Shown piece after piece: positions 22,680 to 26,200 of a stretch of DNA of 64,000 bases (its first letter is position 1; each line of letters opens with the position of its first letter). The stretch is from Paenibacillus sp. PvR098 (GTDB lineage: Bacteria; Bacillota; Bacilli; Paenibacillales; NBRC-103111). The notes beneath the pieces were generated by a model. That model was given only the letters and a program-made list of their open reading frames with translations. It searched no databases and was not told the DNA's origin. The DNA lies in the NCBI RefSeq assembly GCF_017833255.1, contig NZ_JAFIBU010000001.1, positions 3,652,501 through 3,716,500 of the forward strand, written 5' to 3'. Both the position numbers and the translations under genes were made by a program.

Positions 22680-22964
22680 GCATTCTTTTTGGCCAGTCGG
22701 GGGAACGCAGTGCACACCACCCAACGTTCTTCTGGCTGCCGATAACTGTTCTGATCCTGGAATTTCCTCCAATGGTTCGTGCCTCTAGTTCCATAAATCA
22801 CTCTCTTGATATCCCTCACGAAAAAAATCTTGGACTCTCAGCCTCTGTTCTTCGCAGAGCTAAACCACATCTCATTAATAACCACTTACTCCCCATGTTA
22901 ATAATGAATGGAATAAATAGTCAATCTAGTTTAATTTTAAGTATACTAAGCTAACTTTATGTCA

Positions 22965-22993
22965 TTGACATTGTAAATAATTCAACATAAATA
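22965..22993 (+). promoter_or_regulatory. Strong predicted sigma-A promoter
   Basis: Consensus TTGACA, 17-base spacer, TAAATA. It faces a short interval with one small ORF and a terminator. The rest of 22680-22964 is AT-rich and shows nothing recognisable. Confidence 0.6.
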
Positions 22994-23047
22994 AGGGTTT
23001 GTTAATTTTATATTATGTTTATTTACATAATAATGGAGAGGGTCTTC

Positions 23048-23155
23048 ATGATGGGCAAAGGTTCATCAAATGATCTAATTAAAAACACCGCAAAGCCTGT
23101 GATTCAGGTTTTGCGGTGTTCCGGTATACGACCGTATAACGGTAATTTTTTATAA
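23048..23155 (+). CDS. Possible 35-residue small protein (or untranslated small RNA)
   Basis: ATG 23048 (or 23051) follows GGAGAGG at about 7 bases and opens 35 codons, beginning MMGKGSSNDLIKNTAKPV. It is bounded by a consensus promoter 55 bases upstream and a plus-strand hairpin at its end. The second half of the ORF runs through the inverted repeat that ends the opposite gene, so its C-terminal residues may only reflect that hairpin. No family is recognised. It could equally be a roughly 150-base noncoding RNA. Confidence 0.35.
   Translation: MMGKGSSNDLIKNTAKPVIQVLRCSGIRPYNGNFL
23079..23120 (-). terminator. Terminator of the HTH-isochorismatase gene
   Basis: Minus strand AACACCGCAAA.CCTG pairs with CAGG.TTTGCGGTGTT and continues into TTTTTAATT. 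It lies 57 bases after the gene's stop. Confidence 0.85.
23121..23152 (+). terminator. Plus-strand hairpin ending the short unit
   Basis: Imperfect stem CCG.GTATACG / CGTATA.CGG followed by TAATTTTTTA on the plus strand. It abuts the minus-strand terminator, making a back-to-back pair. Confidence 0.5.
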
Positions 23156-23176
23156 TAGTTGCGTGAACCTGCAGCT

Positions 23177-23941
23177 TTATAGTTCGTTCATGTATTTGAT
23201 AATCCGGTCCACATTCACAACATCGGCATACCGTGCATTTAAATCGAGTAGTGCCGTATTTTGAATCGTTTCAGTTCGGTCTCCAACCGCTTCTTCGGCT
23301 ACGATCACATGATAGCCTCGCTCTAAAGACTCCACGGCTGTTGCGCGAATGCTTCCGCTAGTCGTGGTTCCAGCCAATATCACGGTATCAATCTCTCTTT
23401 GTTTGAGAAATTCCTCAACCGGTGAGCAATAGTAATCCGTGATATGAACAGTGGTATTGACCAAATCATAAGTGAAATTATCGAGATCCGGGTGGGTTTT
23501 CACCCAAGCGCTGTTTCGATCCAACACATGCAAAGACGGGAACTTTTGCCCCCATAACAGGGAAAATTTATTCGCTGGATCGTAGATGGTCTTGCTGAAT
23601 ATCACAGGAATATGATTGGCGATTGATGCCGTGACGAGTTTCTTGGTCGCTTCAATCTGTTCGTTTAATTGAATAGACAATTTGGAATTGGGATCGGTGA
23701 AGGCCAAGGTGAGGTCGCGAATGAGCAGGGCTGGTTTATTGCCAAATCCAATTTGTCCGGAAAAACCCTGTTGGGTGTACAATTGCTGTATTTCATCCAA
23801 CAGATACCTTCTCTGTCCACCGGGAGTATAAATTACTTTTAATCCGTACCCTTCAACTACACCGTCTTGTTCTATTCTTCGCAATGTGCTTGCTGAAATC
23901 CCCAACAGTTTGGCGGCATCGGAAATATTTAATAATTTCAC
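23177..23941 (-). CDS. MerR/excisionase-type HTH fused to an isochorismatase-like domain; probable regulator
   Basis: Residues 1-55 form a winged HTH of the MerR/excisionase kind (ISDAAKLLGISASTLRRIEQDG, then a GGQRRY wing). Residues 65-250 match isochorismatase-fold hydrolases of the N-carbamoylsarcosine/maleamate amidase type (KPALLIRDLTLAFTDPNS; GYHVIVAEEAVGDR). The catalytic Asp is present, but the Lys position reads as the Asn/Thr-rich VNTTVHIT, and the nucleophile Cys of TSGC is Ser (TTTSGSIRATAVES). Catalysis therefore looks lost, and the domain may sense a ligand. It is divergent from a maleate-isomerase-like gene, a likely target. Autoregulation and ligand are inferred, not seen. Confidence 0.82.
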   Translation of the reverse strand: MKLLNISDAAKLLGISASTLRRIEQDGVVEGYGLKVIYTPGGQRRYLLDEIQQLYTQQGFSGQIGFGNKPALLIRDLTLAFTDPNSKLSIQLNEQIEATKKLVTASIANHIPVIFSKTIYDPANKFSLLWGQKFPSLHVLDRNSAWVKTHPDLDNFTYDLVNTTVHITDYYCSPVEEFLKQREIDTVILAGTTTSGSIRATAVESLERGYHVIVAEEAVGDRTETIQNTALLDLNARYADVVNVDRIIKYMNEL

Positions 23942-24206
23942 CTTTCATTCATCCTTTTCTGTTAAATCAAGTTGTTTGAATATATACAAAATTATCAAGT
24001 CTACACAAAGATAACAAAACTTATTTTTATTGTAAATGATAAGCCTGCTTTTGTAAATTTACTAAGCTAAAGCATTGAACGTACTGGGCCGAGAGTGGCG
24101 GAGTATGTATGATATAAGCTTTATTTATACATTTTTTTTATATTAATAATTAGGCAAAAGGTCTAAACATAATTTTCAAAAAATTAAGTTTTATCCGAAA
24201 GTTTGG

Positions 24207-24235
24207 TTGACGAGTTTGTGTCATTGTCTTATAAT
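24207..24235 (+). promoter_or_regulatory. Consensus sigma-A promoter toward the maleate isomerase gene
   Basis: TTGACG, 17-base spacer, TATAAT. The transcript would have a leader of about 470 bases. Two direct copies of TTGGTAAGTTT (24265-24275 and 24318-24328) lie just downstream and could be regulator binding sites. Confidence 0.7.
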
Positions 24236-24531
24236 ACCATTAAATATGATAAGAATGAATAAGATTGGTAAGTTTAATTAAGGGTAATTAATATACTTTT
24301 TATTTGTTTTATCATGTTTGGTAAGTTTGGTTCAATTGTAATTGTATTAAGCATTAGCATATGAACACCGTGGAATATCCTCTCATTTATTGAAAAGCAA
24401 TTGAATTGATGCACAAACCATCTCAAGGAAGTGCATGACTCATAGGATGAAGCTTTGAAAGGGGGTGTACCATCATCATTATATGATGATCAAAGATTCC
24501 GTCCTGAGCCTGTATTCCAACTAAATTTATG

Positions 24532-24651
24532 GGTGTGGAAACTACAGCAGCAGAGCACAAGTGCGGTATATGCAATCATTTCTATCACAAATTTATAGTA
24601 ATACATATATTTGATCTCACTGCTGTGCCAGTGAAAACGATATTCCACACC
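24532..24651 (+). other. Inverted-repeat element in the leader of the maleate isomerase gene
   Basis: GGTGTGGAA (24532-24540) is complementary to TTCCACACC (24643-24651), with inner CAGCAG/CTGCTG complementarity. It encloses about 100 bases upstream of the TTG start. Just before it (24472-24490) is a second small hairpin, ATCATCAT/ATGATGAT, containing a 13-codon ORF after a GGGGGTG site. This could be a structured leader with attenuation, or a small palindromic insertion. Function unknown. Confidence 0.4.
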
Positions 24652-24712
24652 GAAGTTCATTCAGTTGTAATGGGAAGAACCATTGCAAATTAACCAAAAG
24701 GGGTGTTCATCT

Positions 24713-25465
24713 TTGCAGCAAGCTTACCGAGTGGGACTGATCGTCCCCAGTTCAAACACGACGATGGAAACGGAAATACCGGAAATGCTGCGCAGCCGAT
24801 CACAGATCGAGCCGGAGCAATTCACCTTTCATTCCAGCCGGATGCGCATGAAGCATGTGACTAAGGAAGAACTGACGAAAATGGATCACGAAAGCGTGCG
24901 CTGTGCCGTTGAATTATCAGATGCCCGCTGTGACGTATTGGCTTATGCCTGCCTGGTTGCGATCATGTGCCAAGGACCGGGTTACCATGTTTCTTCAGAA
25001 ATTAAATTAACGAACGCAACGGAGCAAGCGGGAGATATGATAGCGACCATCAGCAGCGCCGGCGCATTAATCGAAGGGCTTAAAATTATGGGGGCCAAAA
25101 AAATATCCATCGTAACTCCTTATATGAAGCCCCTTACCCAAACGGTGATCGAATACATCGAATCGTACGATATCCAGGTGCTGGATTCAATCAGCTTAGA
25201 AGTGGCTGATAATCTTGAGGTGGGCAGACTTGATCCGATGAATTTAATTGATATCGCCCAAAGGCTGAACATTCAAGACGCGGATGCGGTGGTGCTTTCC
25301 GCTTGCGTGCAAATGCCATCGCTTCCTGCCGTTCAGGAGGTGGAGAACCGGCTGGGGATCCCGGTTCTTACGGCCGCTACCTCGACTGTGTATCAAATCC
25401 TGAAAATGCTGAATTTGAAGACGGTCGTACCTAATGCTGGTAAATTGTTATCCGGCAGCTACTAG
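24713..25465 (+). CDS. Maleate cis-trans isomerase-like protein (Asp/Glu racemase superfamily)
   Basis: Likely isomerises maleate to fumarate or acts on a related cis-dicarboxylate. The 250-residue protein opens with VGLIVPSSNTTMETEIPEML and has the two family cysteines in LAYACLVAIMCQGPGYH and VVLSACVQMPSLPAV, plus the C-terminal TAATSTVYQILKML. All fit maleate isomerase (NicE type); arylmalonate decarboxylase relatives are the alternative. The start is a TTG 8 bases after AAAGGGGTG; a TTG at 24683 has no such site. The neighbouring regulator carries a maleamate-amidase-like domain, which supports a maleate-related substrate. No other nicotinate or maleate genes are nearby. Confidence 0.82.
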   Translation: MQQAYRVGLIVPSSNTTMETEIPEMLRSRSQIEPEQFTFHSSRMRMKHVTKEELTKMDHESVRCAVELSDARCDVLAYACLVAIMCQGPGYHVSSEIKLTNATEQAGDMIATISSAGALIEGLKIMGAKKISIVTPYMKPLTQTVIEYIESYDIQVLDSISLEVADNLEVGRLDPMNLIDIAQRLNIQDADAVVLSACVQMPSLPAVQEVENRLGIPVLTAATSTVYQILKMLNLKTVVPNAGKLLSGSY

Positions 25466-25480
25466 AACTTGAGCTGAATG

Positions 25481-25524
25481 AAATATAGAAGGGCAGTGGT
25501 TTAATCCACTGCCCTTCTATATTT
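25481..25524. terminator. Perfect 19-base-stem terminator
   Basis: AAATATAGAAGGGCAGTGG (25481-25499) is exactly complementary to 25506-25524 around a 6-base loop, with a T-rich end on both strands. It lies 15 bases after the maleate isomerase gene and can work in both directions. Confidence 0.9.
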
Positions 25525-25526
25525 CT

Positions 25527-25917
25527 ACACCAGTGATCTGGTCCATTAAAGCTTGTCGTGCTGTATGGCATTGATTAATATTAGTGCAGTAACGGAGATG
25601 GAGAGACGGGGATCTGCTGCAAAAACAGAAAATGCCATCCCTGCGGTGGAAGCCGGTGTAAGGTAACCGGCTCGTCCGATGCTGCGAGAACGCCAATGTC
25701 AATGAATCGTTGATACAGGAGATTAGTGAACGTTACGCATGACAGACGATGTCGAAGGATAAATGTTGAAGCAAACTAGTGGGTGAATATATGGATAGCG
25801 GACTCATCGATTCTTACGAGCTGGTGAAGTTCTCCCTGGTGGGCCGCTTCATCCTTAGCTTCAAGCCTGCTGACGACGCATGCCACCGTTATAGACCCGA
25901 TCTCTTACCCGCATTAA
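25527..25917. other. Gene-poor region with an unrecognised open fragment
   Basis: On the minus strand 25694-25546 is open for about 48 codons and ends in TAA; it reads with a natural amino-acid mix (RAGYLTPASTAGMAFS within it) but lacks a start and was not matched to a family. It may be a relic. A plus-strand ORF from 25779 runs through a hairpin and into an antisense relic and is not believed. Confidence 0.4.
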
Positions 25918-25959
25918 TAGAAGTCCCGATGATGGTTTCCGTCATTGGGACTTCTTTGT
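25918..25959. terminator. Hairpin between relics
   Basis: AGAAGTCCC and GGGACTTCT pair with inner ATGATGG/CGTCAT-type pairs; TTCTTTG follows on the plus strand. It directly follows the chemoreceptor relic when read on the minus strand. Confidence 0.6.
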
Positions 25960-25963
25960 CAGG

Positions 25964-26200
25964 TCATGTTTGGTTGTTGCCTTTAAGGGTATCTGCGCTC
26001 ATTTTCTCCAGCAGCTTGGCGTTATTGCTAATTTCCTGCATCATACGCGGCCAGTTCTTCCGTGAGAGCAGACTGGTTCTCTGCCTCTTCGTTGATGTTG
26101 GATATTGAGGACAGGATATCTATATCGAATATTGTTTTCTTAATAGCTTCCGTATGCTGCTTTAGGGTCATATTCAGAATGCTTCTCCCATATAGTCTAT
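25964..26200 (-). pseudogene. Broken C-terminal fragment of a methyl-accepting chemotaxis protein
   Basis: Minus-strand codons from 26171 give an MCP-like tail: SSISNINEEAENQSALTEEL, then after a one-base frameshift MMQEISNNAKLLEKMS, ending at TGA 25966-25964. Gln/Glu-rich heptads with the E-E-L-A-A motif fit the signalling domain tail of chemoreceptors. An unshifted read hits TAG right after the break, and the upstream frame is closed by TAA within about 40 bases. Only this C-terminal piece remains, next to the deacetylase start. Confidence 0.65.

Follow-up and report, generated by a model that had tools for sequence, protein, structure and literature searches.

What does a protein that joins a DNA-binding domain to the fold of a catabolic amidase do opposite a maleate isomerase gene? 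The question is raised by a locus in a 64,000-nucleotide stretch of the Paenibacillus sp. PvR098 genome (the window), where a minus-strand gene (positions 23177 to 23941; 254 residues, GTG start) is annotated in public records merely as encoding an “isochorismatase family protein.” Lower nicotinate catabolism comprises steps ending in maleamate, maleate, and fumarate. We propose, with a probability of roughly 0.7, that the protein is a pathway-specific repressor of this part of nicotinate catabolism, whose sensor would be a dead maleamate amidase and which would release its target upon ligand binding. The proposal rests on the loss of the catalytic triad in all fusions of this kind and its preservation in standalone amidases, on their grouping in one clade and their linkage to nic genes, and on a period-9 motif whose sites are enriched upstream of cluster genes, lie past the −10 element of most structural-gene promoters, and are nearly absent from fusion-free loci.

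The initial annotation had described the minus-strand product as an HTH joined to an isochorismatase-fold domain, and the open reading frame and its Pfam domains agree. Residues 1 to 58 (23768 to 23941, minus strand) constitute a winged HTH of the MerR/BldC type. Both HTH models, PF00376 and PF12728, matched all eight family members scanned, and in the window protein the MerR/HTH_17 match, at residues 3 to 58, fell slightly under the Pfam cut-off. About a dozen residues further on (59 to 70, where the structure model is weak), the isochorismatase-fold domain of some 175 residues begins (residues 71 to 244; 23210 to 23731, minus strand). It was recognized by PF00857 (E = 5.9e-22), by alignment to 1nba, and by Foldseek, whose top matches were 1nba, 4l08, and 3ot4; the closest solved sequences were N-carbamoylsarcosine amidases and the maleamate amidases Ami and NicF. 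The structure prediction, made from a three-row alignment, reached a pLDDT of 60, which identifies the fold and is too weak to judge the pocket. We rejected the possibility that the HTH acts as an excisionase or serves a mobile element, because the common motif and the context are those of catabolic promoters.

Asp51, Lys144, and Cys177 of 1nba, which we take to be its catalytic triad, aligned in phmmer with D76 (23714 to 23716), T164 (23450 to 23452), and S197 (23351 to 23353) of the window protein, all on the minus strand. The claim that the Asp was kept while the Lys region and the Cys were changed was exact, and the regulator lacks the Asp-Lys-Cys triad of active isochorismatase-like amidohydrolases. 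A triad intact at shifted positions was looked for and rejected, as the stretch between the Lys and Cys columns is gapless relative to 1nba and NicF. Across the family, the catalytic Lys was gone in all 20 fusions read and the Cys in 18, G086 and G935 having kept it. The 19 aligned sequences all retain the Asp; they carry Thr, Ser, or Ile in place of Lys, and the Cys position is occupied by Ser (13 proteins), Ala (4), or Cys (2). The twentieth, G1058, which was read by frame and whose N terminus appears truncated, has Thr for Lys and Ser for Cys. Conversely, Asp-Lys-Cys is intact in 20/20 standalone amidases from the same or neighboring loci. The Asp, a TTSG loop, and R199, an Arg two residues past the former Cys, are conserved across all close fusions. 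Maleate was bound in the crystal of a Cys-to-Ala maleamate amidase (entry 4l08), so a ligand may still bind when the nucleophile has been lost. Compared with NicF and Ami (3uao, 4l07, 4l08) and the N-carbamoylsarcosine amidase 1nba, which share its fold and are its best sequence and structure matches, the regulator adds an N-terminal HTH, replaces the Lys and Cys of the triad, and is placed as a regulator.

When about 1,300 genomes of prokaryotes were searched along with GTDB contigs and plasmids, 20 different fusion loci emerged, every one from Bacilli. The named hosts are Sporosarcina cascadiensis, S. aquimarina, and Peribacillus frigoritolerans, whose fusion occurs on two plasmids under one protein accession and was counted once. 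Viral contigs held no closer relatives, just two distant amidases. In a likelihood tree with the three catalytic columns masked and more distant amidases as the root, the 19 fusions formed one branch (support 96/95) among NicF-type amidases, with standalone NicF-type amidases as their nearest neighbors. This single branch suggests that the HTH-amidase fusion most likely arose once. A duplicated NicF would have gained a MerR/BldC-type winged HTH, and its amidase domain would have dropped the Lys, and mostly the Cys too, while keeping the Asp, the TTSG loop, and the nearby Arg. With these pocket residues in place, a pathway intermediate might be bound but not hydrolyzed. The window protein clusters with the G1039 and G1118 fusions, both of which lie inside full nic clusters.

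The nic gene names used here were assigned by homology and gene order. In Sporosarcina, the fusion gene is followed by genes for the TRAP transporter DctPQM, a NicC-like monooxygenase, NicX, maleate isomerase, an intact NicF, and NicD; in Peribacillus, G945, and G886, an HpaB-type hydroxylase replaces the NicC-like monooxygenase. Nic genes adjoin the fusion in 11 of the 14 close loci (the window, G071, two Sporosarcina, Peribacillus, G896, G886, G1039, G945, G955, G1129a, G1118, G970, and G1058), including the window, with the isomerase alone, and G955, with NicF alone. They were not found near the fusion in G071, G1058, and G896, the last on a short contig, which counts against a nic repressor. 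Hydroxylase, NicX, NicD, and intact NicF genes are typical of the close loci, and NicE is present in half of them. The linkage between the fusion and nic genes is conserved: the isomerase belongs to the fusion's cluster in 7/14 close loci and is found somewhere in the genome in 12/14. The idea that the protein controls the downstream enzyme is supported, and it was too narrow in that the regulon would normally span all of the lower nicotinate pathway. In the Paenibacillus sp. PvR098 genome NicX was not detectable, and no remnants of further nic genes occur within the 64-kb window. Thus, the regulator's targets there are probably just the maleate isomerase gene and its own. This genome carries two maleamate-amidase-like genes elsewhere. 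It also has a run of three consecutive isochorismatase-family ORFs (L045 7351 to 10807, 87 to 91 kb), two of them full-length with intact triads, next to a LysR regulator and a peptide-type ABC transporter.

The gene facing the regulator (24683 to 25465, plus strand) encodes a NicE-like maleate isomerase. Its product matches the maleate cis-trans isomerase of Pseudomonas putida S16 (4fq7, E = 9e-85) and, at 71%, Sporosarcina NicE, and it retains both active-site Cys motifs, YACLVAIM and SACVQMPSL. Counted to the TTG at 24683, the interval between the two genes spans 741 bases; counted to the TTG at 24713, it spans about 770. The latter TTG is preceded by the ribosome-binding site AAAAGGGGTG and is probably the true start. 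As initially annotated, a consensus promoter lies in this interval: TTGACG-17-TATAAT (24207 to 24235, plus strand) agrees with the consensus at 11 of 12 positions. The distance from promoter to gene, about 450 bases, is far longer than in relatives, and the 24340 to 24712 portion of this leader holds a perfect inverted repeat, GTGGAATATC / GATATTCCAC, at 24370 to 24379 and 24639 to 24648. A repeated element (MITE) was rejected, as the leader is single copy in the genome, and an Rfam scan of 22900 to 26200 for a riboswitch gave no match. A second maleate-isomerase-like gene, 73% to that of the window, is found on the Peribacillus plasmid (L130 1275 to 7175) in a CoA-transferase/3-isopropylmalate-dehydratase/HMG-CoA-lyase/tartrate-dehydrogenase cluster, a context that suggests another use for maleate isomerase.

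Regions upstream of 16 fusions other than that of the window have in common a motif of 20 bases, TTTtgTAAgTTTaaTAAGTT, which is a direct repeat with a period of 9 and reached a log-likelihood of 108.5 versus 57 to 66 in eight dinucleotide shuffles. The window sequence was left out of motif training, and the six best matches on both strands of the 64 kb all fell within the 741-base intergenic region, some of them overlapping in register with one tandem array. The top two make up candidate operator block 1, the tandem TAAGATTGG-TAAGTTTAA-TTAAGG (24255 to 24285, plus strand), which begins about 24 bases past the −10 of the isomerase promoter. The third and fourth, together with an exact 11-base repeat, mark candidate block 2, CATGTTTGG-TAAGTTTGG-TT (24308 to 24335, plus strand), located 53 bases on from block 1. 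The segment from 24207 to 24340, earlier singled out for footprinting, thus has the best score in the window for a motif trained on other species. On the minus strand, the likely promoter of the regulator, TTTACA-17-TACAAT (24029 to 24057; sequence match), is followed 5 bases past its −10 by a candidate autoregulatory operator, TAAGTTTTGTTATCTTT (24007 to 24023). The operator half-site has a third exact copy in the genome (G000:C1 2761126), but this one is located inside a reading frame and appears fortuitous.

We also applied a simple tandem test, i.e., two TAAGTTT units with at most two mismatches in total and a spacing of 9 to 11, to 19 loci. Thirty of the 49 sites fell inside the 5.8% of sequence located at most 500 bases upstream of cluster genes, a rate 26 times that elsewhere for loci that are partly related and not independent; permuted units gave means of 4 sites inside and 17 outside. 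Most structural-gene promoters (HpaB, NicC, DctP, NicD) were outside the motif training set. At 14 NicF-type loci of fusion-free genomes, 61 kb of sequence contained only two sites, both of them within the longest of the stretches, and the promoters of the two nearest amidase loci in the window genome have no tandem site. The G970, G1129a, G896, and G935 fusion loci lack a site recognizable by this test, which counts against a repressor. In G086, a tandem site is found 28 to 55 bases upstream of a standalone amidase gene on another contig. Tandem TAAGTTT units at 9- to 11-base spacing are the probable operator of the regulator.

Most structural-gene promoters are of the sigma-A type, with a 16- to 17-base spacer and forward tandem repeats at most about 30 bases past the −10; at the HpaB and G955 NicF promoters, the repeats start 8 to 9 bases past it. 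Both window promoters similarly have their repeats downstream of the −10. This position, together with the spacer length, argues for a repressor geometry, unlike that of MerR activation. In G086 the repeats are upstream, not downstream, of the best promoter, which counts against repression. We infer that protomers would sit head-to-tail on the tandem repeats that closely follow the −10 element of strong sigma-A promoters, covering the start of the transcribed region and blocking transcription of both the regulator gene and the nic operons. A ligand, most likely maleamate or maleate, would then occupy the dead amidase pocket and free the repressor from DNA. In the window genome, where the remainder of the cluster is absent, the target would be the lone maleate isomerase gene.

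It is quite unlikely that the protein is instead an activator whose liganded form recruits or remodels the polymerase like classical MerR proteins. It shares with them the winged HTH of a superfamily whose best-known members activate, and one G086 site and some weaker repeats do lie upstream of the promoter. However, there is no operator between the −35 and −10 with an over-long spacer: the operators come after the −10, and the near-consensus hexamers and 16- to 17-base spacers of the target promoters make remodeling unnecessary. Moreover, only residues 59 to 70, in a weakly modeled segment, separate the HTH from the next domain, apparently without a coiled-coil linker. An enzyme-regulator that would also hydrolyze amides through a rearranged active site is extremely improbable. 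A Ser could in principle serve as the nucleophile and two fusions have their Cys, but the Lys is lost from every fusion and an entire clade has Ala in place of the Cys.

Amidases of the isochorismatase fold assemble as oligomers, and the fusion's own cluster often supplies an intact NicF as well. Both facts would suit a nic regulator in which the amidase domain is only an oligomerization scaffold and another signal, such as binding of active NicF, exerts control. We consider this unlikely, given that every close fusion has retained the Asp, TTSG loop, and R199 despite the loss of catalysis. It is very unlikely that the gene pair in this genome is merely what is left of a former nicotinate cluster, decaying and without present function. 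The failure of the genome search to find NicX and the unusually long leader would suit such a remnant, but both reading frames are intact, the promoter and operators agree with their counterparts in other species, and the two maleamate-amidase-like genes elsewhere could supply the isomerase with substrate.

BpsR is a regulator of the MarR type. BpsR/NicR-type proteins regulate nic genes by responding to an intermediate of nicotinate breakdown (PMC6837509), as we propose for the present regulator, and differ from it in protein family and operator. In the report on the Bacillus niacini cluster, TetR and IclR genes are the only regulators named (PMC4256190). Streptomyces BldC, whose winged HTH lacks a coiled coil, binds head-to-tail to its own tandem direct repeats, about one turn apart (PMC5859096). 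The regulator resembles it in its MerR-like winged HTH and in an operator, known from sequence, made of tandem direct repeats; however, BldC has no effector domain, whereas the regulator carries an isochorismatase domain, and the repeat unit is AATTXXXX(C) for BldC and TAAGTTT(G/A)(G/A) for the regulator, whose head-to-tail binding is putative. The combination of a DNA-binding domain with an apparently inactivated enzyme domain makes it an enzyme-derived regulator, a kind already known. The catabolic regulator BzdR similarly has an enzyme-derived effector domain that has lost its activity, but the enzyme is shikimate kinase, from outside the regulated pathway, and the HTH is of another type (PMC3602430). 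CoaR combines a MerR-type HTH with a precorrin-isomerase-like domain related to the physiology that it controls, but it is an activator with a metal site, and its fold and operator differ (PMC7689651). Neither an isochorismatase-domain regulator nor a TAAGTTT tandem operator was found in the open literature, most subscription journals being outside this scope, and the family, fold, and operator described here appear undescribed.

The idea that enzymes give rise to regulators is widespread, but clear-cut examples are few. In the present family, the living NicF, a dead twin fused to an HTH, the adjoining operons, and the candidate operator can be seen together in many genomes, and the stages present (Lys lost and Cys kept, Cys to Ser, and Cys to Ala) leave the evolutionary path open to study. 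The analysis also points to a likely regulator for the breakdown of nicotinate in Gram-positive soil bacteria, and the protein might serve as a biosensor for compounds of the maleamate type.

The family extends beyond nic clusters. A second clade with Ala in place of the Cys (G183, G260, G367, and G1129b; about 37% identity to the window protein) is encoded at loci (L080, L081, L082, and L120) that adjoin polysaccharide-deacetylase-like genes and/or intact standalone amidase genes, with the same tandem operator motif between the genes. It probably represents the same design serving another amide or nitrogen compound. The chances are about even that these proteins are the founding family of ligand-responsive regulators that couple an isochorismatase-fold sensor, a dead maleamate amidase duplicated from an enzyme of the controlled pathway, to a MerR-like HTH assembling head-to-tail on tandem direct repeats, with the second clade adapted to other amide catabolism. 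In the third group, which retains the Cys (G086 and G935), the G086 copy lies within a Rieske-oxygenase/TRAP cluster. The G1129 genome has fusions of both clades at separate loci (L120 and L121). G896 encodes, in addition to its full fusion, an ORF with just the HTH part of a second copy (L126 9155 to 9448), which matches residues 2 to 94 with 82% identity and has tandem operator sites close by, in L112.
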